From a virus: a stretch of DNA of 27,353 nucleotides. The position numbers and the translations under genes were made by a program. This document shows positions 3,072 to 20,285 of the stretch, in pieces. The notes under the pieces were generated by a model. It was not told where the DNA came from. It was given only the letters and a program-made list of their open reading frames with translations, and did no database searches. The stretch lies in IMG/VR virus record IMGVR_UViG_3300021090_000090, positions 1-27,353 of that record. One strand, given 5' to 3'. Position 1 is the first letter of the stretch. The number at the start of each line of letters is the position of its first letter.

Positions 3072-3614
3072 ATGGCTTACTCTACGGCTAAAGTCTCCCT
3101 GCTGTCCCAGGCCATCGGCGGCCAGGGCGCGGCACTGTGGTCGCTGATCAACTCCGACTCGATCGCGACCATGCTCGGCGCCGGCTATGTCACCGACGCC
3201 GGCAATCTCGGCATGAAAGTCGGCGATCTGGTCTGGCTCTCGAGCGGCACGTTCAATACGGCGGTCTATCCGTCGTCTGGAGCGGCAACCGCCGACGTGG
3301 GCGAGGCTCCGGACTTCACCGACACTCCGCCGGTGCGGACGTTGGTGCAAGTCGGCTCGATGTCGGCCGGGGCGGCGACGCTCACCGACAACGTGCAGGT
3401 CGGCGGCACCGCTGCCGGCAAGGTTGGGTTCTTCGGCGCAACGCCGATCGTCCAGCCCGCGGCCACCGCGCAGTCGGCGGTGACCACCACGGCGTCGACC
3501 ACGACCACGCCGTTCGGCTACACGACCTCGGCGCAGGCCGAGGGCATCGTCACGCTGCTCAACCGGATCCGCACCGATCTGGTCTCGCTCGGGATCGTCA
3601 AAGGCTCGATCTGA
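3072..3614 (+). CDS. Head decoration / head-fibre-like protein
   Basis: This encodes 180 residues, with GGGAG at 3060-3064 giving a normal start at ATG 3072. It lies directly after the capsid gene. The N-terminal two thirds are small-residue-rich and beta-like (VGDLVWLSSGTFNTAVYP, VRTLVQVGSMSAGAATLTDN). The C-terminus carries KVGFFGATPIVQPAATAQSAV, a Thr-rich linker, and a final helix AEGIVTLLNRIRTDLVSLGIVKGSI. The 'K-x-GFFG-x-TP' segment followed by a terminal helix with N-x-I/L-R-x-x-L is widespread in phage head-decoration and head-fibre proteins. I infer a capsid-surface role. The exact family is not certain. Confidence 0.6.
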   Translation: MAYSTAKVSLLSQAIGGQGAALWSLINSDSIATMLGAGYVTDAGNLGMKVGDLVWLSSGTFNTAVYPSSGAATADVGEAPDFTDTPPVRTLVQVGSMSAGAATLTDNVQVGGTAAGKVGFFGATPIVQPAATAQSAVTTTASTTTTPFGYTTSAQAEGIVTLLNRIRTDLVSLGIVKGSI

Positions 3615-3639: not shown

Positions 3640-3685
3640 ATGACGCCGCCGCCTGGTCGGTGGCGGCGTCATTGTTCTCATTCTG
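3640..3685 (+). terminator. Rho-independent terminator closing the head module
   Basis: A 14-bp stem (3640-3653 with 3659-3672, one G-U pair) with a 5-nt loop TGGTC is followed by a T-rich run, TGTTCTCATTCTGC. It lies 25 nt after the decoration gene stop and separates head genes from the glycosyltransferase and tail genes. Confidence 0.85.
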
Positions 3686-3728: not shown

Positions 3729-4607
3729 ATGAAAATAGCCTTCATGGTGGCGACGCGGGGCAATCCGCGCCGCGCGCTGGCGGTCATCGAATGCGCCAAG
3801 GCGCTCGCATCCGGGCGGCACACCATCGAATTCAGTGTCGGTATCGATGGCGACGACGTCCAGTCTAATTACTTCTTCCGCCGCAACATGCCGGCACTGC
3901 CGCTATCCATCGGCAACCGGCCGCCCGGCGTCGGCGCGGTGTGGAACCGCCTGGTGGCGGCCGCGCCTGGCGCGGACGTCTACTGCCCGTTCCCCGACGA
4001 TTGCTTCATCGGCACGCCGGACTGGGACGAGACGATCGCGATGGTGCTCGAGCATGGCTTTCCCGACCGCCGGCTCGGCGTCATCGCCTGGAACGATCTC
4101 GCCAATCCCGGCCAGTGCACGCTGCCGATCGTCACGCGCGAATGGCTCGAGCTCACCGGCCCGCTGTACGACGAGCGCTTTCCGTTCTGGTTCTATGACA
4201 CTTGCGTCGACGAGCTGGTGTCCTTCATCGCCGGGAGGCCTGCGCCGGTGATTCCGACGCTGGTGTTGGCGGCCAAGAAGGGTTTGACGCAACGCATGCG
4301 CGAGCTGGATTTCTGGTGGGATCTCTACGTCGCCACCCGCTACGACCGGCTGCACCTCGCGTCGCGGATCCGCCGTGAGCTCGGCATCGAGCTGCCGCCG
4401 GGCCATCTGGTCCGCGTGCTGATGGGCTGGCGGGCCCGCGACATCGAAGGCCGCCGCGCGCTGCCTGACGTCGAGGCGGCGCTCGCGGCGCATCGCGACC
4501 AGAGGCCCAGCGCCGAATACATCACGGCGCGGGCCGCGGCCGAGGCCTACATGGCGACCGCGCGGTTCCAGCCGCTCGAGGCGGCGGTGGCGGAGCTGGT
4601 GGCGTGA
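3729..4607 (+). CDS. Glycosyltransferase-like protein (GT-A type)
   Basis: This encodes 292 residues, with GGAGGT at 3717-3722 preceding ATG 3729. The N-terminus is the beta strand and loop of a nucleotide-sugar-binding GT-A fold: KIAFMVATRGNPRRA, then FSVGIDGDD, then PGVGAVWNRLVAAAPGADVYCPFPDDCFIGTPDWDE. The PDD (about residues 94-96) is a likely counterpart of the DxD metal site. The C-terminal third is helical and arginine-rich. It would transfer a sugar from an activated donor to an unknown acceptor. It overlaps the second glycosyltransferase gene by GTGA, so the two are probably made together. Lying inside the virion module, it may glycosylate virion proteins, but host surface glycans are equally possible. 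Confidence 0.68.
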   Translation: MKIAFMVATRGNPRRALAVIECAKALASGRHTIEFSVGIDGDDVQSNYFFRRNMPALPLSIGNRPPGVGAVWNRLVAAAPGADVYCPFPDDCFIGTPDWDETIAMVLEHGFPDRRLGVIAWNDLANPGQCTLPIVTREWLELTGPLYDERFPFWFYDTCVDELVSFIAGRPAPVIPTLVLAAKKGLTQRMRELDFWWDLYVATRYDRLHLASRIRRELGIELPPGHLVRVLMGWRARDIEGRRALPDVEAALAAHRDQRPSAEYITARAAAEAYMATARFQPLEAAVAELVA

Positions 4608-10826: not shown

Positions 10827-13765
10827 TGGCAAAGCTCCCCGGCGTCGCCGATCTCGGAGCAACGCCCACGGCGGATGCCGCGCGGCCGGTCGCGACCACC
10901 GACGTCAGCTCGCTGTCGCGCGGCGCAGCGGCCTTGACCGCCGGCGGCGAGGCGCTCGGCAAGGGCATTGCCAAGCTCGGCGAGGGCATCGGCGAATATC
11001 AGATCGACAAGAGCCGCTGGGAATATGCCCAGGCCAGCGCCGGCATGACGGCCGAGCTGATCGGCATCCGCAACAAGGCCAAGGAGGACATAACCCACGG
11101 GCCCGACGATGCCGGCCACGATATGCCGACGCGCTACGGCAACGAGGTCGCGGCGGCCAAGAGCAAATGGTCGGCGACCATCGCCGACCCGAACATGCGG
11201 GAGCGGTTCGATAACGAGATCAAGCCGGCCGAGGCGCGCGAGACCGCTTTCTTCCAGTCGCGCCAGCGCGACTTGTGGCAGGACGGCGAGAAGGCGCGCG
11301 GCGACGAGCAGCGCCACGACCTGATCGACAAGGGCGTCTCAGCCGGCGACGAGGAAACCAAAGAAGACGCCATCCGGGCGATCAACAAGAGCATCGACGG
11401 CGCGGTCGCCGCCGGCATCTACACCCAATCCGAGGCCGCGCAGCTCAAGCGCCACTCAGCCGAGCAGTTCGCCACCGCCGACGTGCTGGCCTCGATCAAC
11501 AGCGGCGATCCCGACCGCATGGTGGGCGCGCTCAACGCGCTGCGCCGCGGCCCGGGTTCTCCCGAGGCGACAGTCGATCGCATCCTGCATAACGAGGGCA
11601 CGGCGCGAAATCCGAAATCATCGGCGACCGGCGCCGGCCAGTTCATCGACCAGACCTGGCTTGCGATGCTCCGCAAGGAGCGCCCCGACCTGGCCGCGGG
11701 CCGCGGCGACGAGGAGCTACTGGCGCTGCGCGCCGACCGGACGCTCGGCCGGCAGATGACCGCGGCCTATGCCCGCGACAACGCCGCGTTCCTGGTCAAG
11801 CAGGGCGTCGAAGCGACGCCGGGCAACGTGTATCTCGCGCATTTCCTCGGGCCCGCCGGTGCCGCCGCGGTGCTCAAAGCCAATCCCAGCATGCCGGTGC
11901 AGGACGCGCTGGCCGCGGCAGTCGGCGATAAGAAGGCCGCGGCGATGGTCGAGGCCAACCAGTCGATCTTAGGCGGCCAGCTCGCGGGCTCGGTGGTCAA
12001 CTGGTCCAGCAAAAAGATGGGCGGCGGCGAGATCTACGAAGTGTTGCGGCCCAACCCGGTGCTGCGCGAGCGGCTGATCGGCGATCTCGAGCAGGGCCTG
12101 CACAAGCGCAACGCCGAGGAGCTGACCGGCTTCAAGCTGCGGCTGCAGGACACCACGGCCGAGGCGATGACGGTTGGCACGGTTGCCAAGCCGATGAGGC
12201 TTGGCGAGTTTGTGGCGGCGCTCGGCGCCGACGCCGGGCCCAAGGCGCACAAGCAATACCAGGCGCAGCTGCAGCTCGGGCAGGACATCAGCAAGGTTGC
12301 CGCTCTGGATCCAGACGAGCAGCAGAAGCTCCTGGACCGCTACGCGCCGACGGCCGGCGCCGAAGGCTTCTCCGACCAGGTCAAGCGCCGCGAGCAGCTC
12401 CAGAAGGCGATCGTGCACGAGCAATCGCTGCGCGCGCGAGATCCCGATTTCAAGAAACAGGTCGATAGCTCGATCGCCGAGGCCGCGCGCACCGGGAAGG
12501 CAACCAATGCCATCAGCCGCGACGAATTCGTGCGGCGCTTCGGCAAGGACGACGGCGATCGCGCCTATGCGAGCTACAGCGCATCACTGCGGCTCGGCCG
12601 CGACGCGCAGAACGCCGGCGAGCTGAGCCTCGAGGAGCAGAACGCGCTGCTCAAGGATTACGTCCCCGCGCCCGGCAGCGACGATTATGTCGAAGCCTCG
12701 AAGCGCTACGACGGGCTGCAGAAGGCGATCGCGCAAGCCAACAAGGAAAAGGTCGCGGATCCCGCCGGCTTCGCGATCGCGCGGCTGCCGGTGGTGAGCG
12801 AAGCGCATGCCAAGCTGACCGACGCGCTGAGCAATCCGACCGCGCCGCTCGAGGCCAAGCAAACAGCTGCGCGCGAATACGTCGCCAAGATGGAGATGGA
12901 GCAGGCGCGCATCGACATTCCGGCCGACCAGCGCCGGCTGCTGCCGAAAGGCTACGCCGACCGTTTCAACGCCATGGTGTCCAAGCCGCAGGCCGCCGGC
13001 GGCAGCTTGAACGTCGCCGCCGCGATCGAGAACGAGGCGCGGATCTGGGGCGACGAGTGGCCGAAGGTCTACCGCCAGCTCGCCAAGGGCGCGATGCCGG
13101 TGGTCACCGTCATCGGCTCCGGCGTCAAGCCGGTGGCGGCGCAGGTGCTCACAGAGTTTGCCAACACCAAGCTCGGCGACATCGCCAACGACCAGAGCGA
13201 GGAGAAGCTCTCGACCATCCGCAAGGACGTGCGCGACAAGTTCCGGCCGCTGGCGAGATCCATGGTGGGCAACGAGGGCACGCAAACCTCGATCGACGCC
13301 TTCCAGGCCTCCGGCGAGAAGCTCGCGGCCTATTACGTCCGCAATGGCAAGAGCTCGATCGAGGCGGCCGCGCAGGCGTTCGACGATCTGCTCGGCCATA
13401 AATACGACTTCGGCGCCGGCACCTATCGCGTGCCTAAGAACATTTCGGTCACGCCGGACGAGGTTGCTGCGGGGCTGCGCGCGGCGCGGGCCAAGCTCGG
13501 CGAATTTGATCTGGAGCTCGCCAAGAGCCGGACGCCCGGGCTTTCCGAAACCTACCTCAAGGAGGAATCGGTGCGCCGTTTCGCGCGGGACGGGGTTTGG
13601 ACAACCGCGCCCGATGAGTCCGGCTTGGTGCTGACCTATGGTGACGAGTATGTGTCGCGGCGGAACGGATCACCGCTGCTACTGACCTGGGCGCAGCTCG
13701 GCGAGCTCGGCCGCGAGCACAACGCCAAAGTTCGCGGGGCGCGCGGCATCGGGGTGATGCCGTGA
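10826..13765 (+). CDS. Internal virion protein C-like (T7 gp15 position) with lytic transglycosylase domain
   Basis: This encodes 979 residues from ATG 10826, which overlaps the preceding TGA. After a helical N-terminus there is a soluble lytic transglycosylase-like domain around residues 245-360. It has a candidate catalytic Glu257 in HNEGT, then SATGAGQFIDQTW (266-278) and later GNVYLAHFLGPAGAAAVL. This domain would open the peptidoglycan locally during DNA ejection. In T7 that activity is carried by gp16, so the domain has moved between proteins here. Residues about 461-545 and 567-651 are two diverged copies of one helical unit. The C-terminal third is helical with no domain I recognise. 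Position and length suit the periplasmic ejection tube protein. Confidence 0.78.
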   Translation: MAKLPGVADLGATPTADAARPVATTDVSSLSRGAAALTAGGEALGKGIAKLGEGIGEYQIDKSRWEYAQASAGMTAELIGIRNKAKEDITHGPDDAGHDMPTRYGNEVAAAKSKWSATIADPNMRERFDNEIKPAEARETAFFQSRQRDLWQDGEKARGDEQRHDLIDKGVSAGDEETKEDAIRAINKSIDGAVAAGIYTQSEAAQLKRHSAEQFATADVLASINSGDPDRMVGALNALRRGPGSPEATVDRILHNEGTARNPKSSATGAGQFIDQTWLAMLRKERPDLAAGRGDEELLALRADRTLGRQMTAAYARDNAAFLVKQGVEATPGNVYLAHFLGPAGAAAVLKANPSMPVQDALAAAVGDKKAAAMVEANQSILGGQLAGSVVNWSSKKMGGGEIYEVLRPNPVLRERLIGDLEQGLHKRNAEELTGFKLRLQDTTAEAMTVGTVAKPMRLGEFVAALGADAGPKAHKQYQAQLQLGQDISKVAALDPDEQQKLLDRYAPTAGAEGFSDQVKRREQLQKAIVHEQSLRARDPDFKKQVDSSIAEAARTGKATNAISRDEFVRRFGKDDGDRAYASYSASLRLGRDAQNAGELSLEEQNALLKDYVPAPGSDDYVEASKRYDGLQKAIAQANKEKVADPAGFAIARLPVVSEAHAKLTDALSNPTAPLEAKQTAAREYVAKMEMEQARIDIPADQRRLLPKGYADRFNAMVSKPQAAGGSLNVAAAIENEARIWGDEWPKVYRQLAKGAMPVVTVIGSGVKPVAAQVLTEFANTKLGDIANDQSEEKLSTIRKDVRDKFRPLARSMVGNEGTQTSIDAFQASGEKLAAYYVRNGKSSIEAAAQAFDDLLGHKYDFGAGTYRVPKNISVTPDEVAAGLRAARAKLGEFDLELAKSRTPGLSETYLKEESVRRFARDGVWTTAPDESGLVLTYGDEYVSRRNGSPLLLTWAQLGELGREHNAKVRGARGIGVMP

Positions 13766-15747
13766 CCATTTTCGCCGACGGGGTTCGCGGCGGCTCGACT
13801 CGCTATATCGAAGACATGGGCGTTTCGCTCGGCGAGTCGCTCGGCGCCACCGCGAGCGAAGCGGTCGAGCACATGCCGATCGTGTCGCTGGGCCGCATCG
13901 GCGAGCTTTCGGCAGCGCAGGGCGCGCCGCCGGATCTCGGCGGTGGCTTCGCATCGCCGGATTACGCCGACCTGTTCAAGCCGGAACGGCCGGACGTGCC
14001 GATCGAGGCGGCGCGCGCCAAGATCAAGGAAGCCGGGCTCGACAAGGCGCTGCACCTGCCGGACCAGCCGTCGATCCGATCCGCCGCGCTCGACATCATG
14101 CTGGAGCGCGCTAGCCACCGCCGCGAGCTGCAGGCCACGCTGTCGCGCGGGCCGTCCGGTTTCGTGCCGGGCGCGCTGTCGATCGGAACCTCGTTCCTGG
14201 TGTCGGCGCTCGATCCGCTCAACGTCGCCTCGGCCTTCATTCCGGTGATCCGCGAGCTGCGTTACGGCAAGCTGATGGCGGAAGCCGGCGGCGGCGCGAT
14301 CGCGCGCGCCGGCGTGCGCGCCCGGGTCGGCGCCGCGTCCGGCGCGGTCGGCGCCGCGGCGGTCGAGCCGCTCGAGGCGATCGCCCGCACGCAAGAGGGC
14401 GCCGACTATACGATGGCGGACGCGCTGCGCTCGGTGATGTTCGGCACGGTGCTGGGCGGCGGCTTGCACTCCGGAGGAGGCGCGGTCGCCGACGTCGTCC
14501 GCGCCCGCAGGGGCACAAAGCTCTATCCGTTCGGGCCGGGTGAATCGCATTTCGATCCGGTCGCGGATCTGTTCAAGGTCACGCCAAAAGAAGGCGGCGC
14601 GGCGGCCGCGCCGGCCGACGGCGTCAGCAAGATCGACGACTCGTTCCTCAATCCCAAGGTGCCCGAGGTCAAGGAAGCGCGCAGCCAGTCGCTGCTGGAA
14701 TTCCTCGCCGCCCGCGGCGGCCTGCGCAACGACGATGCGATGATCGAGGACGTCCGCTCGTCGATCGGCAGCAAGAACCATCTGGTCGGCGGCGTCGGCC
14801 CGCTGATCCGCAAGCCGGGCGAAAAATCGGCGGGCGCGGCGCGAGGCGGTGCGCTCGAGCCGATGAGCCTCGACCAGGCGCGCGAGGCCGCGGTCGAAGC
14901 CGGCTATCTGCGCGACAGCGGCCGGGACAGCGGCGGCGTCAGCACCACCAATATCAGCACGCTGCTCGACGCTATCGACGGCGAGATGCGCGGCACCAAG
15001 CTTTATCCGCAGGGCGAGGGCCCGCGGGTGGACGTGGCCGCGGTCGAGCGGGTCTCCGACGAGGAGCTTCATCGCCGCGAGGGCGCCGCGGTCGATCTCG
15101 ACCGGGCGCTGCAGGGCGCGGGCTTCAAGCCCGGCGATGTTTCGGGTGGCGAGCGTGCGCGCGCGATCGATCTGATGGCGCGCAGCTCGGTCGAACCGCT
15201 GGAGGCCTACGAGCTCGCCGTGATGGCTGGACCGCCGACGTCGCCGGTTGTTGCGACGCTGGACGATCTGCCGCCGCGCGCAAAGGAAGACCTGCTGCGC
15301 GGCGCGATCGCCGCGCTGCACGACGGCCAGCCGGTGTCCGCCTGGGAACAAATGACGGCGGCGGCGAAGACCGATCCGCGCATCGCGGAATCGATGCGCG
15401 ATGCCAGCCAGGGTGGCCCGGCCGATCCGGCGGCGGCCGACGCCGATTGGCATGCCCTGGCCAACCGTCCCCGGGATTTCGACGAGCCCGACGCCCTGGC
15501 GGCCTCACAGGCTGCGGAAAAGCTGCCCGAGCCTGCCTCGATGGCTCCGGAGCCGAATAAGCGAATCCAGGCCGCTGAGGCGGCCGCGGCCGCGGCAGAG
15601 GCCGAATACAAGGCCCACGAGCCTTATTTACCGGAGGATCTCCGGGCCCGGGTCGAGGCGGACCTGGCCAAGATCGACATCGAGGCGGCCGACCGGGCCC
15701 ACGTCCTGGAGAAGGGCGCGGCATGTCTCACCGCGGCGAGGGGCTGA
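13762..15747 (+). CDS. Internal virion protein, N-terminal half of a gp16-like ejection protein
   Basis: This encodes 661 residues and starts at GTG 13762, overlapping the previous stop. Hydrophobic helices around residues 130-165 (GFVPGALSIGTSFLVSALDP..ASAFIPVI) and the later MADALRSVMFGTVLGGGLHSGG are like the membrane-active segments of large podoviral ejection proteins. Residues about 317-415 carry a 'GGLRND..' start, RKPGEKS, then MSLDQAREAAVEAGYL and TLLDAIDGEMRGTKLYPQGE. This is a recurring motif of very large, multi-domain phage proteins. The C-terminus is an Ala/Glu-rich coiled coil. Together with the next gene it occupies the place of T7 gp16 (about 1318 residues), which suggests a split version. 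The exact role is inferred. Confidence 0.65.
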   Translation: MTIFADGVRGGSTRYIEDMGVSLGESLGATASEAVEHMPIVSLGRIGELSAAQGAPPDLGGGFASPDYADLFKPERPDVPIEAARAKIKEAGLDKALHLPDQPSIRSAALDIMLERASHRRELQATLSRGPSGFVPGALSIGTSFLVSALDPLNVASAFIPVIRELRYGKLMAEAGGGAIARAGVRARVGAASGAVGAAAVEPLEAIARTQEGADYTMADALRSVMFGTVLGGGLHSGGGAVADVVRARRGTKLYPFGPGESHFDPVADLFKVTPKEGGAAAAPADGVSKIDDSFLNPKVPEVKEARSQSLLEFLAARGGLRNDDAMIEDVRSSIGSKNHLVGGVGPLIRKPGEKSAGAARGGALEPMSLDQAREAAVEAGYLRDSGRDSGGVSTTNISTLLDAIDGEMRGTKLYPQGEGPRVDVAAVERVSDEELHRREGAAVDLDRALQGAGFKPGDVSGGERARAIDLMARSSVEPLEAYELAVMAGPPTSPVVATLDDLPPRAKEDLLRGAIAALHDGQPVSAWEQMTAAAKTDPRIAESMRDASQGGPADPAAADADWHALANRPRDFDEPDALAASQAAEKLPEPASMAPEPNKRIQAAEAAAAAAEAEYKAHEPYLPEDLRARVEADLAKIDIEAADRAHVLEKGAACLTAARG

Positions 15748-15750
15748 GCC

Positions 15751-15798
15751 ATGTTCGCACCCGTCGCGGACTGCGCTCGACGACGGGTGCGTAAATGA
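15751..15798 (+). CDS. Candidate 15-residue leader peptide coupled to the next gene
   Basis: ATG 15751 follows a good Shine-Dalgarno sequence (GAGGGG, 15738-15743) at 7 nt spacing. It encodes MFAPVADCARRRVRK, with TGA at 15796-15798 overlapping the ATG (15795) of the 885-residue ejection protein. That large gene has no Shine-Dalgarno of its own and its start is preceded by a perfect hairpin (15757-15790). The arrangement fits translational coupling through a leader ORF. Whether the peptide itself has any role is unknown. Confidence 0.4.
   Translation: MFAPVADCARRRVRK
15757..15790 (+). promoter_or_regulatory. Perfect hairpin before the 885-residue ejection protein start
   Basis: A 10-bp perfect stem (arms GCACCCGTCG at 15757-15766 and CGACGGGTGC at 15781-15790) has a 14-nt loop. 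The 3' arm ends 4 nt before ATG 15795, exactly where a ribosome-binding site would be expected. No T-run follows, so termination is unlikely. Occlusion of initiation, relieved by ribosomes translating the leader ORF, is the natural reading. Confidence 0.55.
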
Positions 15799-18452
15799 CC
15801 GAACGCAACGACTGCATCGACGAGCTGCTCAAGGCGATCAAGGACCGCAAGGACCGCAAGTTCGTCAAGGACCGGCTCGAGGAGCTCGACGATCGCTTCG
15901 AGGCCGACGACGGGCCTGGCTCGGCGCGCGAGAAGTATTTCCGCGCGGCGAAGGAGATGCTGGACGAGCAGGCGGTGCAGAGCGCGGTGCTCAAGCGCAA
16001 CCTGCGGATGGACGCGCTCAAATTCCGCGACCTGCGGACCTACATCGAAGCCGCGCACGAAGTTAAGGGCGGCTCCTATCACCTCGGCATCGAGGCGCGG
16101 CTGGTCGGCGTCAACACGCCGTTCTTTGATCCAAAATCGCGCGCCGGCAACCAGGCGTCGGTCGGTTCGCTTTCGCTCGGCGCGCAGCGCGACTGGATCG
16201 GCGGCGCGATCGGCGACATCCAAAGGCTCGAGCGCGACAAGCCGCAGCTCGCGGGCCTGGAGAAGCTGTTCTATTCGAAGGCGATCGAGAGCGAGATCTT
16301 CATCGAGAAGGTCGAGCTCGAGCGCCAGGCCAAGGGCTTCGGCGCACGGCCCGGCCGCACCAAGAACGAGGGCGCGCTCGAAATCGCCCGGATCCTGCAC
16401 AAGTGGGACAAAACCAAGATCGGCGCGCTCAACGAGGAGGGCGCCTGGATTACCGAGCACTCGTCCTACGGCGCGAGCGTGCAGCACGATCCCGACAAGA
16501 TGATCGCCGCCGGCGGCAACCTGACGCGGCGGATGTTCACGCGCGAGAGCAACCGCCAGGCGTTCGATCCGCTGTTTCAAGAGGCCCGCATGGCGTGGGC
16601 GAGCAAGACCCTGCAATGGATCGACGCCAAGCGCACCTTCGGCACCACGGTCGACGCCGACAAGAAGCTTGCCGAGATGTACGGCGGCCTGGTCACCGGC
16701 GACCATCTGGAAATGACCACGGTGTCGAGCGAGCCGATCTTCGGCAATCTGGCGCGCAAGGTGTCGGCCTCGCGCGAATTGATCTGGAAGTCGGCCGAGG
16801 ACCAGCTGGCCTACATGCGCGAGTTCGGCCGGTTCGGGCCGACCGACGCCTGGCTGCACGGCATGCGGGACAGCGCTAACAAGTATGCGCTGATGAAGGT
16901 GTTCGGCTCTAAGCCGAAGGAGAATTTCGAGGAGCTGTTGGCCTACGCCAAGAATCGCACCACCGGCGCGCCGGAGCGGCTGACGCTCGACAAATGGGAG
17001 CAGGCGCTGCGCAACCGTTACGCGGTGGTGTCCGGCGAGGCCGACCGGCCGGTGCGCAACGCCTGGTCCGGCATCGTCGCCGGCGTGATGGCGGTGCAAC
17101 GGCTGGCCAAGCTCGGCCTGACCCCGTTCGCCATGATCTCGGACAACGTGACGATTTCGCGCGAGCTCGCCTACCACGGCGTCAATTACCTCGAGCGTAA
17201 CGGCGGGCTGCTGTCGGGCTATTTCCAGGGCGCGCCGGGCACGGCCAAGCGCGAGGTCGCCGAGCTGCTGCACACCGGCATTCTCGGGCGGCTGCGCGGC
17301 GTCACCGCGCGGTTCGACGTCGCCGACGGCGCGCCCGGCATCATGGCCAAGCTCGAGAACACCTTCTTCAAGATCACCGGCATCTCGGGGATGTCGGAAA
17401 ACAAACGCGCCGACGCCGAGCGCATGATGGCGTTCCACATGGGCAAGCAGCGCGGCAAGGACTTCGCCGAGCTCGGCGAAAGCGAGACTCGCATCCTCAA
17501 TGCCTTCGGCATCGGCGATCGCGAATGGGCGCTGCTGGCGAAGACCGCCTGGAACGAGATCGACGGCGCGACGTACCTGACGCCCGACGTCGCGCTCAAG
17601 CTCAAGGACGCCGACATACAGGAATATCTCAAGAGCCGCGGCTCGATCGCCGATCGCGCGGCTGCTGCCGTCGTCGCCCCGCAGGCGCCGGCCGCCGCGG
17701 CCGACCTGGTCGAGCGCACGCGGCACGACCTGGCGCTGAAGCTGTGGGCCTATTACGGCGAGCGCGGGCAATTCGCCGTGATTGAAGTCGGGCCGCGCGA
17801 GCGCGCGATGCTCTACAAGGGCACCAAGCCCGGCGAGCAGCTCAACCTGGCGCTGCGGCTGCTGCTGCAGTTCAAGCAGTTCCCGACCGCGATGGTGTCG
17901 AAGGTGTGGGGCCGCGAGATCAACGGCGGCGCCGGCACCATGGACAAGGTCGCCGGCATCACCGAGCTCGTCGTCGGCTCGACGCTGGCCGGCATGATGG
18001 CGAATTATCTCAACGACGTCGCCAAGGGCCACGACCCGCACGCGCGCTGGCGCAACCAGCCGATCGCCGCGATGATCTCCGGCTTCACCCGCGGCGGCGC
18101 CGGCACCATCTACGGCGACTTTTTGATCGGCGAGTGGTCGCGCTTCGGCTCGTCGGCGATCAACACCCTGGTCGGGCCGACCTTCGGCCAGGTCGACAAG
18201 GCGATGGAGATCTACAGCGCGATTACGCATCCGTCGAAGTGGAAGGGCACCAGCGCGGCGCTGGGGCTTCGCACCGCGCGCGAGAACCTGCCATTCGGCA
18301 ACATGATCTACACCAAGGCCGCGATCGATTATCTGGTGTTCTACCGGCTGCAGGAGTGGCTCAACCCCGGCTACCTCGAGCGCATGGAGCGCACGGTCAA
18401 GGAAAAGCAGGGCATCGAGTTCATGCTCTCGCCGCGCGCAATCGCCCGTTAG
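15795..18452 (+). CDS. Large internal virion / DNA-ejection protein, C-terminal gp16-like half
   Basis: This encodes 885 residues. The start is ATG 15795, since the N-terminus MTERNDCIDELLKAIKDRKDRKF is a plausible charged helix and the upstream frame is closed soon after. The body is long and helical, with DWIGGAIGDIQRLERDKP, HSSYGASVQHDPDKMIAAGG, SAEDQLAYMREFGRFGPTDAWLHGM and VMAVQRLAKLGLTPFAMISDNV. The C-terminal part has LNLALRLLLQFKQFPTAMVSKVWGRE, two Gly-rich hydrophobic segments (ELVVGSTLAGMMANYL, PIAAMISGFTRGGAGTIYGDFL), then NLPFGNMIYTKAAIDYLVFYRLQEWLNPGYLERMERTVKE. That ending is the conserved C-terminus of the large ejection protein in BPP-1-like podoviruses. It probably helps form the trans-envelope DNA conduit. 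Confidence 0.75.
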   Translation: MTERNDCIDELLKAIKDRKDRKFVKDRLEELDDRFEADDGPGSAREKYFRAAKEMLDEQAVQSAVLKRNLRMDALKFRDLRTYIEAAHEVKGGSYHLGIEARLVGVNTPFFDPKSRAGNQASVGSLSLGAQRDWIGGAIGDIQRLERDKPQLAGLEKLFYSKAIESEIFIEKVELERQAKGFGARPGRTKNEGALEIARILHKWDKTKIGALNEEGAWITEHSSYGASVQHDPDKMIAAGGNLTRRMFTRESNRQAFDPLFQEARMAWASKTLQWIDAKRTFGTTVDADKKLAEMYGGLVTGDHLEMTTVSSEPIFGNLARKVSASRELIWKSAEDQLAYMREFGRFGPTDAWLHGMRDSANKYALMKVFGSKPKENFEELLAYAKNRTTGAPERLTLDKWEQALRNRYAVVSGEADRPVRNAWSGIVAGVMAVQRLAKLGLTPFAMISDNVTISRELAYHGVNYLERNGGLLSGYFQGAPGTAKREVAELLHTGILGRLRGVTARFDVADGAPGIMAKLENTFFKITGISGMSENKRADAERMMAFHMGKQRGKDFAELGESETRILNAFGIGDREWALLAKTAWNEIDGATYLTPDVALKLKDADIQEYLKSRGSIADRAAAAVVAPQAPAAAADLVERTRHDLALKLWAYYGERGQFAVIEVGPRERAMLYKGTKPGEQLNLALRLLLQFKQFPTAMVSKVWGREINGGAGTMDKVAGITELVVGSTLAGMMANYLNDVAKGHDPHARWRNQPIAAMISGFTRGGAGTIYGDFLIGEWSRFGSSAINTLVGPTFGQVDKAMEIYSAITHPSKWKGTSAALGLRTARENLPFGNMIYTKAAIDYLVFYRLQEWLNPGYLERMERTVKEKQGIEFMLSPRAIAR

Positions 18453-18500
18453 CGCCGCACACAACCTCTCACTTCTATTTACTTGACAACGGAGGCGCGC

Positions 18501-20285
18501 ATGACCGCATTCGACCGCCGCGGCGCGTTCGTCTACGACGCCGCGATCAAGACCGCGGCGCTGCTGGCGACCACGGCCAACATCACGCTGGCGGGCCACC
18601 AATCGATCGACGGCGTCACCACGCTCGAGGGCGACCGCGTGCTGGTGAAGGACCAGACCGACCCCAAGCTGAACGGCATCTACGACGCCTCGAGCGGCAA
18701 CTGGACGCGCTCGGCCGACGCCGCGCGCAACACCAGCTTCGTGCTCGGCACGCTGGTCGAGGTGGCGTCCGGCGCCGTCAACGCCGGGCTGATGTACGTG
18801 CAGACCTGCGACGACACGCCGGTCACGATCGGCACCTCCGAGATCGGCTTCACCGAACAGTCCAACGTCGCCACCGCGCAGCAGCGCGCGACTTCGGGGT
18901 CGAGCCTGGCGATCGGCACCGGCTCCAAGACCTTCGCCATTCAGGCCGGCAAGAGCTTTGTGGCCGACCAGTGGGTGCTGGCCTATTCGGCCGCCGATCC
19001 CGAAGACAGCATGCTCGGCCAGATCACCAGCTACGGCGGCACGAGCTTAATTGTCAGCATGATCGCGGCCGGCGGCAGCGGCACCCACACCGACTGGATC
19101 ATCGTGCTGACCAACTCGCGGGCGGCGGCCGGCCGGCAGCCGCCGGTCGGCACCGGCAACACCACCGGAGCTGCCTCGTCGGTGGCGGATCATTTCGCGA
19201 CCTTCGCCGACACCACCGGCAAGGTGCTCAAAGACGGCGGCGTGGCGGGCGCACTTTCCGCGCTCGATACGTTGACCGCGAAATTCCTCGCCGGCAGCGC
19301 GCTCGGCGCCGCCGCGCCGATGGTCAACGGCACCATCGCCGAGAGTAGAGCCGCCAACGCCACCACCATCGCGCTCAAAACGCTGGCCGGAGCGGATCCC
19401 GCCGCGGTCGATCCGGTCCAGGCCGTGTTTCGCAACGTCACTCCTGGCACCGGCAATTACGTGCCGATCGCGATCGCTACGGCGCTGGGCCTGACCATTC
19501 CGTCCGGCGCCACCATGGGGTTTGCCAGCGCCACCGCCGGCCGGCTGTGGCTGCTCGGGCTGTCGGTTGCCGGCGCGGCCGAGCTCGCCGTCATCAACTG
19601 CCGCGACGGCACCACCAACAGCATCTACCCGCTGGCGGGCTTCGGCATTATTTCGACCACGGCGATCGACACCGCCTCCGACAACGCCCACGTCGCCTAT
19701 TCGGCGGTGGCGCGCAGCGACGTGCCCTACCGCGTGCTGGGCTATCTGACCTGGGAAAGCGGACTGACCACCGCCGGAACCTGGGACGCCGCCCCGACCC
19801 GGATCGAGCTCTACGGCCTGGGCGTGCCGCTGCCGAACCAGGTCATCCAGACCCAAGGTAACGACACGGGCGCCGTTGCAACCGGCACCACCGTGTTGCC
19901 ATTCGACGACAGCATCCCGCAGAACACAGAAGGCGATCAATATTTATCGCAGGCAGTGACCGCGAGTTCGGCGGCCAATCTATTCGATATCGAGATCCAG
20001 GTATTGTTGGCCAGCAATACTAACACGCAGCAGAGTTTGGCGCTGTTTCAGGACTCAAACGCAAACGCCTTGGCGGCCAACGCAGAGGTGCACGCCACCG
20101 CCAGTCAGACGATGGGCATTACGCTACGCAAGCGGGTGCTTGCCGGGACGGTATTGGAGACCACATTCAAGGGTCGGTCTGGCAACACTGGCGCTGGCAC
20201 CACCACGTTTAACGGCAGCGCCGCGGCGCGGCGGTTCGGCGGCGTCGCCAACAGCTTCATCAATGTGAGGGAGTTGATGGCATGA
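18501..20285 (+). CDS. Tail fibre / receptor-binding protein
   Basis: This encodes 594 residues. ATG 18501 is preceded by GGAGG at 18491-18495; the in-frame TTG 18483 is less likely. Residues about 15-75 carry the widespread phage-tail motif ANITLAGHQSIDGVTTLEGDRVLVKDQTD-x-x-x-NGIY-x-x-x-x-G-x-W-x-R, likely the virion attachment part. Next comes a beta-rich block (SSLAIGTGSKTFAIQAGKSF..GDxDxILGQ-type, here EDSMLGQITSY), a linker with FATFADTTGKVLKDGG, and a compact beta domain. From about residue 452 there is a C-terminal jelly-roll-like tip. The tip uses noticeably more A/T-ending codons than the rest. It should bind the host surface. The gene follows the ejection genes and overlaps a small partner gene. 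Confidence 0.78.
   Translation: MTAFDRRGAFVYDAAIKTAALLATTANITLAGHQSIDGVTTLEGDRVLVKDQTDPKLNGIYDASSGNWTRSADAARNTSFVLGTLVEVASGAVNAGLMYVQTCDDTPVTIGTSEIGFTEQSNVATAQQRATSGSSLAIGTGSKTFAIQAGKSFVADQWVLAYSAADPEDSMLGQITSYGGTSLIVSMIAAGGSGTHTDWIIVLTNSRAAAGRQPPVGTGNTTGAASSVADHFATFADTTGKVLKDGGVAGALSALDTLTAKFLAGSALGAAAPMVNGTIAESRAANATTIALKTLAGADPAAVDPVQAVFRNVTPGTGNYVPIAIATALGLTIPSGATMGFASATAGRLWLLGLSVAGAAELAVINCRDGTTNSIYPLAGFGIISTTAIDTASDNAHVAYSAVARSDVPYRVLGYLTWESGLTTAGTWDAAPTRIELYGLGVPLPNQVIQTQGNDTGAVATGTTVLPFDDSIPQNTEGDQYLSQAVTASSAANLFDIEIQVLLASNTNTQQSLALFQDSNANALAANAEVHATASQTMGITLRKRVLAGTVLETTFKGRSGNTGAGTTTFNGSAAARRFGGVANSFINVRELMA

Follow-up and report, generated by a model that had tools for sequence, protein, structure and literature searches.

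In the tap-repA system of plasmid R1, translation of a short leader open reading frame (ORF) probably melts a stem that covers the ribosome site of the next gene, as part of a regulated replication control with an antisense RNA. At the attI1 site of class 1 integrons, an 11- or 18-codon ORF (ORF-11 or ORF-18) serves a gene that lacks a Shine-Dalgarno (SD) sequence (PMC8876359). Mycobacterial interspersed repetitive units (MIRUs), as presented in a review (PMC12548453), are mobile insertions at start codons whose internal ORF couples to the gene that follows, at -4 nt; the same source also treats short ORFs as a proposed means of ribosome delivery. Here, we describe a phage gene junction in which a 15-codon ORF (the leader) probably passes ribosomes from one gene to the next, and compare it with these systems.

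The window (the whole 27,353-nt stretch of viral DNA that was analysed) carries an upstream gene, the leader and a large gene in close succession (Table 1). Both flanking products are probably ejection-type proteins, judging from annotated relatives that are named internal virion protein. The leader shares the frame of the upstream gene, starts 3 nt after its stop (+3) and overlaps the large gene by 4 nt (-4), which is the stop/start proximity of a translationally coupled pair. Its SD forms a duplex of -7.0 kcal/mol with the 16S tail (random window positions: median, -2.45; 5th percentile, -6.5 kcal/mol). An earlier note on this DNA had pointed out a 15-codon ORF with a good SD, ending as ATGA on the start of the 885-residue gene; both features are present (ATGA at 15795-15798). 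The same note gave the large gene no ribosome-binding site at all, which is too strong, since a GGTG/GGGTG lies before it as its best site, but this signal is indeed weak (duplex, -3.8 kcal/mol, against the random median above). The note also took most junctions of this phage to be ATGA overlaps: 4-nt overlaps do occur (at 422, 751, 4604, 5311, 13762, 20282, and 21028), but a mechanical junction listing contains 1-nt overlaps and gaps too, and the wording was loose. The leader is not a readthrough extension of the upstream protein or its cut-off C-terminal end, because that protein ends (GAACL...) at the homologous place in relatives. A phage moron (an autonomous inserted gene) would have a promoter and a terminator of its own and be foreign in composition; no sigma-70-like promoter was found in 15400-16200, and clearly lower G+C is confined to the small ORF of L001 (below). 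Opposite the large gene, a 992-codon frame is open on the minus strand (15624-18602), probably mirroring the high G+C at third codon positions of a G+C-rich genome.

Table 1. Features of the junction in the window and of the corresponding junctions in relatives (L numbers; positions are those of the respective sequence, and paired signed numbers are upstream/downstream offsets in nt).
Feature	Position	Strand	Evidence or remark
Upstream gene, 661 aa, GTG start	13762..15747	+	ORF; PHROG 3003-like (phrog_3003, E 2.5e-47)
Natural stop of upstream gene	TGA15745-15747	+	C-terminal GAACL motif aligned in relatives
SD GAGGGG, now serving leader	15738..15743	+	7 nt before ATG15751; in last upstream-gene codons
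15-codon ORF, likely bridging, MFAPVADCARRRVRK	15751..15798 (ATG15751, TGA15796-15798)	+	sequence
5' arm of perfect 11-bp stem	15756..15766	+	pairs with 15781..15791; loop 14
3' arm of stem	15781..15791	+	overlaps expected SD position for 15795
Weak SD-like GGTG of large gene	15786..15789	+	duplex -3.8 kcal/mol; inside 3' stem arm
Large gene, 885 aa	15795..18452	+	PHROG 684-like virion structural protein (phrog_684, E 5.3e-123); relatives
Upstream ejection-type gene in L001	1831-4734		
Upstream ejection-type gene in L003	1343-4834		
Upstream ejection-type gene in L010	936-4001		
Upstream ejection-type gene in L011	1614-3677		
Upstream ejection-type gene in L013	1770-3770		
Gapped junction, L095			76-codon ORF, -1/-14
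Gapped junction, L161			65-codon ORF, -4/-4
Gapped junction, L152			81-codon ORF, +13/+9
Gapped junctions, L137 and L195			ORFs present, not bridging
Gapped junctions, L138 and L140			spacers of 145 and 151 nt, without bridging ORF
Gapped junction, L122			29 nt; in-frame ATG gives gap of 14; direct with another start

Junctions between the two gene families were surveyed with two wide scans, one limited to the best 80 of 437 relatives and the other to the best 80 of 398. After removal of loci without the large gene (10), without the upstream gene (11), or duplicated in sequence (46), the 171 loci examined gave 104 junctions, which are mutually related, and their counts are not independent events. 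Among those listed, 90 were direct (gap of -8 to +10 nt; -1 nt in 48, +2 in 16, and -4 in 8) and 14 had a gap of >20 nt. Each of the six named phages examined at greater distance (Pseudomonas Flu_PA14_4 and Tr60_Ab31, Pelagibacter HTVC035P and HTVC203P, Vibrio 1.182.O, and Escherichia phiV10) had a direct junction, at -4 to +5 nt, as did the prophage-like loci L024 and L025. Outside the 104, the upstream frame of L134 (38% identical) ends differently when read by hand. In direct-junction relatives, the large-gene SD is mostly written in the final upstream codons, often as C-x-L-R-G/N/T, with a median energy of -5.6 kcal/mol (n = 90). The 14 gapped loci gave -3.8 (window), -2.7 (L001), -4.6 (L002), -3.1 (L003), -6.3, -1.7 (L013), -5.2, -1.9, -5.6, -6.4, -5.7, -9.3, -10.6, and 0, which differs from the direct loci by a Mann-Whitney test that treats loci as unrelated (p = 0.013). 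A usable large-gene SD (-5.2 or better) was present in L011, L095, L137, L138, L140, L152, and L161. Since some gapped loci have a usable SD or no bridging ORF, bridging is not universal.

The phages closest to the window by large-protein identity (L001, 69%; L013, 67%; L003, 60%; L002, 59%; L010, 57%; L011, 42%) mostly share its layout. Counting the window, a small ORF takes up the space between this SD and the large gene in six of the seven and makes use of the SD itself, the exception being L010, with a TGATG contact. The leader is the shortest of the series (15 codons, followed by 56 in L003, 72 in L013, 87 in L002, 88 in L001, and 89 in L011). Upstream/downstream offsets, +3/-4 nt in the window, were -4/+3 (L001), -4/+15 (L002), -4/-1 (L003), +8/+3 (L013), and -4/+42 (L011), and the +42 gap of L011 is bridged by an 18-codon ORF (3940-3996) at -4/-11. 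Of these six near relatives, five have a small ORF, and in four of the five, L011 excepted, the large-gene SD is weak. That 18-codon ORF of L011 begins MTEHKDCIDE..., like a second copy of the true large-gene start (MAGKYDDCIDR...), and the duplicated start looks like a recombination scar.

The small proteins showed no mutual likeness beyond chance after allowing for 10 comparisons. Compared as protein with the five other occupants, the leader gave p values of 0.03 to 0.83, none surviving correction for five tests. The small ORFs matched no Pfam families; there was one weak PHROG match (L011) and one non-significant NCBIfam match. In a phage collection searched with four of them, three were without match and the fourth found one weak Sphingomonas phage protein (two records, E 8e-3). 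Among the small ORFs compared, G+C was clearly low only in that of L001 (4731-4997; 0.52, neighbours 0.66 and 0.64), as though it had come from a foreign source. No DNA-level relatives were found among phages, and no close nucleotide relative carrying the same 47-nt insert was found. A fragment in L007 (5001-5324; Bradyrhizobium sp. 132, NZ_JADPKY010000123.1) is 63% identical to large-protein residues 297-404 and is perhaps a prophage remnant that hints at an alphaproteobacterial host.

We consider it fairly probable that the leader is a bridge that carries ribosomes, as they terminate, over an insertion of 47 nt, with neither the peptide nor the hairpin within it having a function of its own. 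The ancestral state would have been direct stop/start contact, with the large-gene SD in the last upstream codons; a 47-nt piece would now lie between this old SD and the large-gene start. It may have been tolerated because it amounts to a minimal ORF, served by the old SD and ending as ATGA on the large gene. Ribosomes would reach the leader from the upstream stop 3 nt away or load on the SD, unwind the stem while translating the 15 codons, terminate at TGA15796-15798, and reinitiate at ATG15795. We infer the direction of the insertion, the reinitiation, and the lack of peptide function from this layout. According to Huber et al. 2023 (PMC10666635), reinitiation is almost lost at a distance of about 20 nt, from which one would expect two genes with a bare gap of 47 nt to be uncoupled; coupling at longer distances appears in studies cited by the review PMC12548453. 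The pattern expected of coupling (an SD-driven ORF, an SD-poor large gene, and stop-start proximity) recurs in the near relatives with unrelated small ORFs, so that coupling via a bridging ORF is likely. Unrelated small ORFs thus fill this slot time and again, and that of the window appears to be the smallest.

Compared with MIRUs, the locus has the same geometry (a short insertion at the start codon, with its own ORF ending at -4 nt, where 90 of the 104 junctions listed are direct), an arrangement that for MIRUs carries little expression cost in the account of PMC12548453. Unlike MIRUs, which form a repeated and apparently mobile family, the insert is single-copy, with one partial match (three mismatches) elsewhere in the window and no exact copy of its hairpin in viral contigs, and the relatives carry small ORFs that are unrelated in sequence to one another. 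The resemblance to ORF-11/ORF-18 lies in a short ORF with a good SD that feeds an SD-poor gene, and the integron peptide itself hardly matters as reported in PMC8876359. In the integron, a constant short ORF within a recombination site meets changing downstream genes, whereas in the phage the constant part is the downstream gene and the short ORF varies. In contrast to both the MIRU and the ORF-11 cases, the insert is single-copy, phage-borne, and placed in a slot with changing occupants. A third parallel is phage f1 VII-IX, which likewise combines an overlap at -4 nt with a hairpin just ahead of the second gene (PMC12548453); unlike in f1, where VII and IX are both genes and the evidence is mutational, the window has a 15-codon ORF and a non-conserved hairpin, known from sequence.

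Alternatively, the spacer is non-coding and its ORF fortuitous, the large gene starting by itself from GGTG or without an SD, and leader and stem being irrelevant; we think this rather unlikely. In random 47-nt spacers with the dinucleotide make-up of the real one, an SD-spaced ORF ending at ATGA arose in 3.1% when it had to begin with ATG and in 8.0% when any start was allowed; for SD-driven ORFs of any kind that end close to the large start, the share was 9.7%. As a chance ORF of such geometry is thus found in 3-10% of spacers, the leader alone is no proof of selection. The energy of the GGTG and the long spacers of L138 and L140, which do without a bridging ORF, are consistent with this alternative, but the SDs behind those two spacers (-6.4 and -5.7) are better than that of the window, and small ORFs near both neighbours recur in five other near relatives.

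The earlier note had proposed a different role for the leader, as a coupling switch with a hairpin. In such a model, the hairpin would sequester the large-gene initiation region, be opened only by leader translation, and set the dose of the large protein. The hairpin exists, with a perfect stem of 11 bp and not 10, and it does cover the site where the large-gene ribosome-binding site would be (-14 to -4 of ATG15795). With the outer CAT15750-15752 pairing with ATG15795-15797, 15 of 17 pairs are formed in all. A perfect stem of at least 10 bp arose in about 1 of 3000 random 47-nt spacers (~3e-4), and one of 11 bp in 0 of 3000, a rarity that the bridging ORF leaves unexplained. The fold z-score was -3.5 over 50 nt, -2.1 over 63 nt, and -1.2 over 106 nt; the 50-nt fold energy ranked 130 of 2731 sampled windows, and the entire window held three perfect stems of at least 11 bp (loops of <=30), where Markov sequence gives 0.63 +/- 0.84. 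Locally the stem thus stands out, but for the window as a whole it is ordinary. A hairpin before the coupled gene IX of phage f1 provides a precedent (PMC12548453).

Against such a switch, the stem is not shared. In the -55 to +5 region of 10 other loci (L001, L002, L003, L010, L011, L013, L014, L024, L037, and L040), no stem of >6 bp was found at the same place (longest perfect stem, 4-6 bp), and zero compensatory changes are countable because a homologous stem does not exist; the exact pair of hairpin arms had 0 matches in 2.9 million viral contigs. Nor is the large start unusually closed in folding estimates (opening cost for -18 to +12, 19.7 kcal/mol, a value equalled or exceeded at 32% of 300 random positions). 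The leader start is the more occluded one (24.7 kcal/mol, above all 12 other window gene starts computed), and, since the 5' arm begins in the second leader codon, the stem would be no less of a hindrance to the leader than to the large gene. A hairpin switch, which the earlier note itself would have regarded as refuted by a stem that relatives do not conserve, is unlikely. The locus is like tap-repA in its short leader ORF and a stem over the ribosome site of the next gene, and unlike that antisense-RNA-regulated replication control in that the stem is not conserved: neither a stem kept by compensatory changes (10 other loci) nor a known RNA family or terminator tail of the attenuator type was found. 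Scans for a known RNA family (Rfam, no match up to E 1), an intrinsic terminator-like site, or a sigma-70-like promoter gave the stem no identity. Elsewhere in the window, a hairpin at 3640-3672 (14-nt arms, 93% complementary, 5-nt loop, then TGTTCT) lies between genes 3072-3614 and 3729-4607, a terminator-like position near head protein genes.

That deletion has cut a longer small gene, such as that of L001, L002, L011, or L013, down to the 15 codons is very improbable: the same slot does hold unrelated longer ORFs in relatives, and the best protein match of the leader is to L002 (p = 0.031 before correction for five tests), but neither in DNA nor in protein does any similarity hold up once the number of tests is allowed for.

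The upstream protein is variable in its second half. Pfam domains matched there were ART-PolyVal in L001, L003, and L010 (below the Pfam cut-off), PBECR3 in L011 (above it), and PBECR1 in L013 (just below it); no effector-like Pfam domain was found in the upstream protein of the window or of L002. Such domains occur in "polyvalent proteins," which are thought to be injected with phage DNA, as described in PMC5512222. One speculation, which we regard as unlikely, is that the junction is a recurrent acceptor slot, lying between the SD and the start codon of the large gene, with a borrowed SD and two-ended coupling, and that the small genes repeatedly entering it would partner (as inhibitor or chaperone) the exchangeable upstream domain, the slot of the window being reduced to a 15-codon bridge. 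The partnership fits the relatives only in part: L010 shows an ART match without a small ORF, L002 a small ORF without a domain found, and L001 and L003 are both ART-matched, yet their small ORFs are unrelated.

For the leader as a bridge between the two genes, the hairpin itself would give no reason for interest. The junctions would then offer a natural series (direct contact, 15 codons, and 56-89 codons) for reinitiation in relation to distance and to a bridging ORF, a dependence that is at issue in the debate between unfolding and scanning models. If the bridge is real, the phage can tolerate or exchange inserts within a tightly coupled virion-gene operon while stoichiometry is kept, as long as an insert brings an ORF that captures the SD and passes the ribosomes on.
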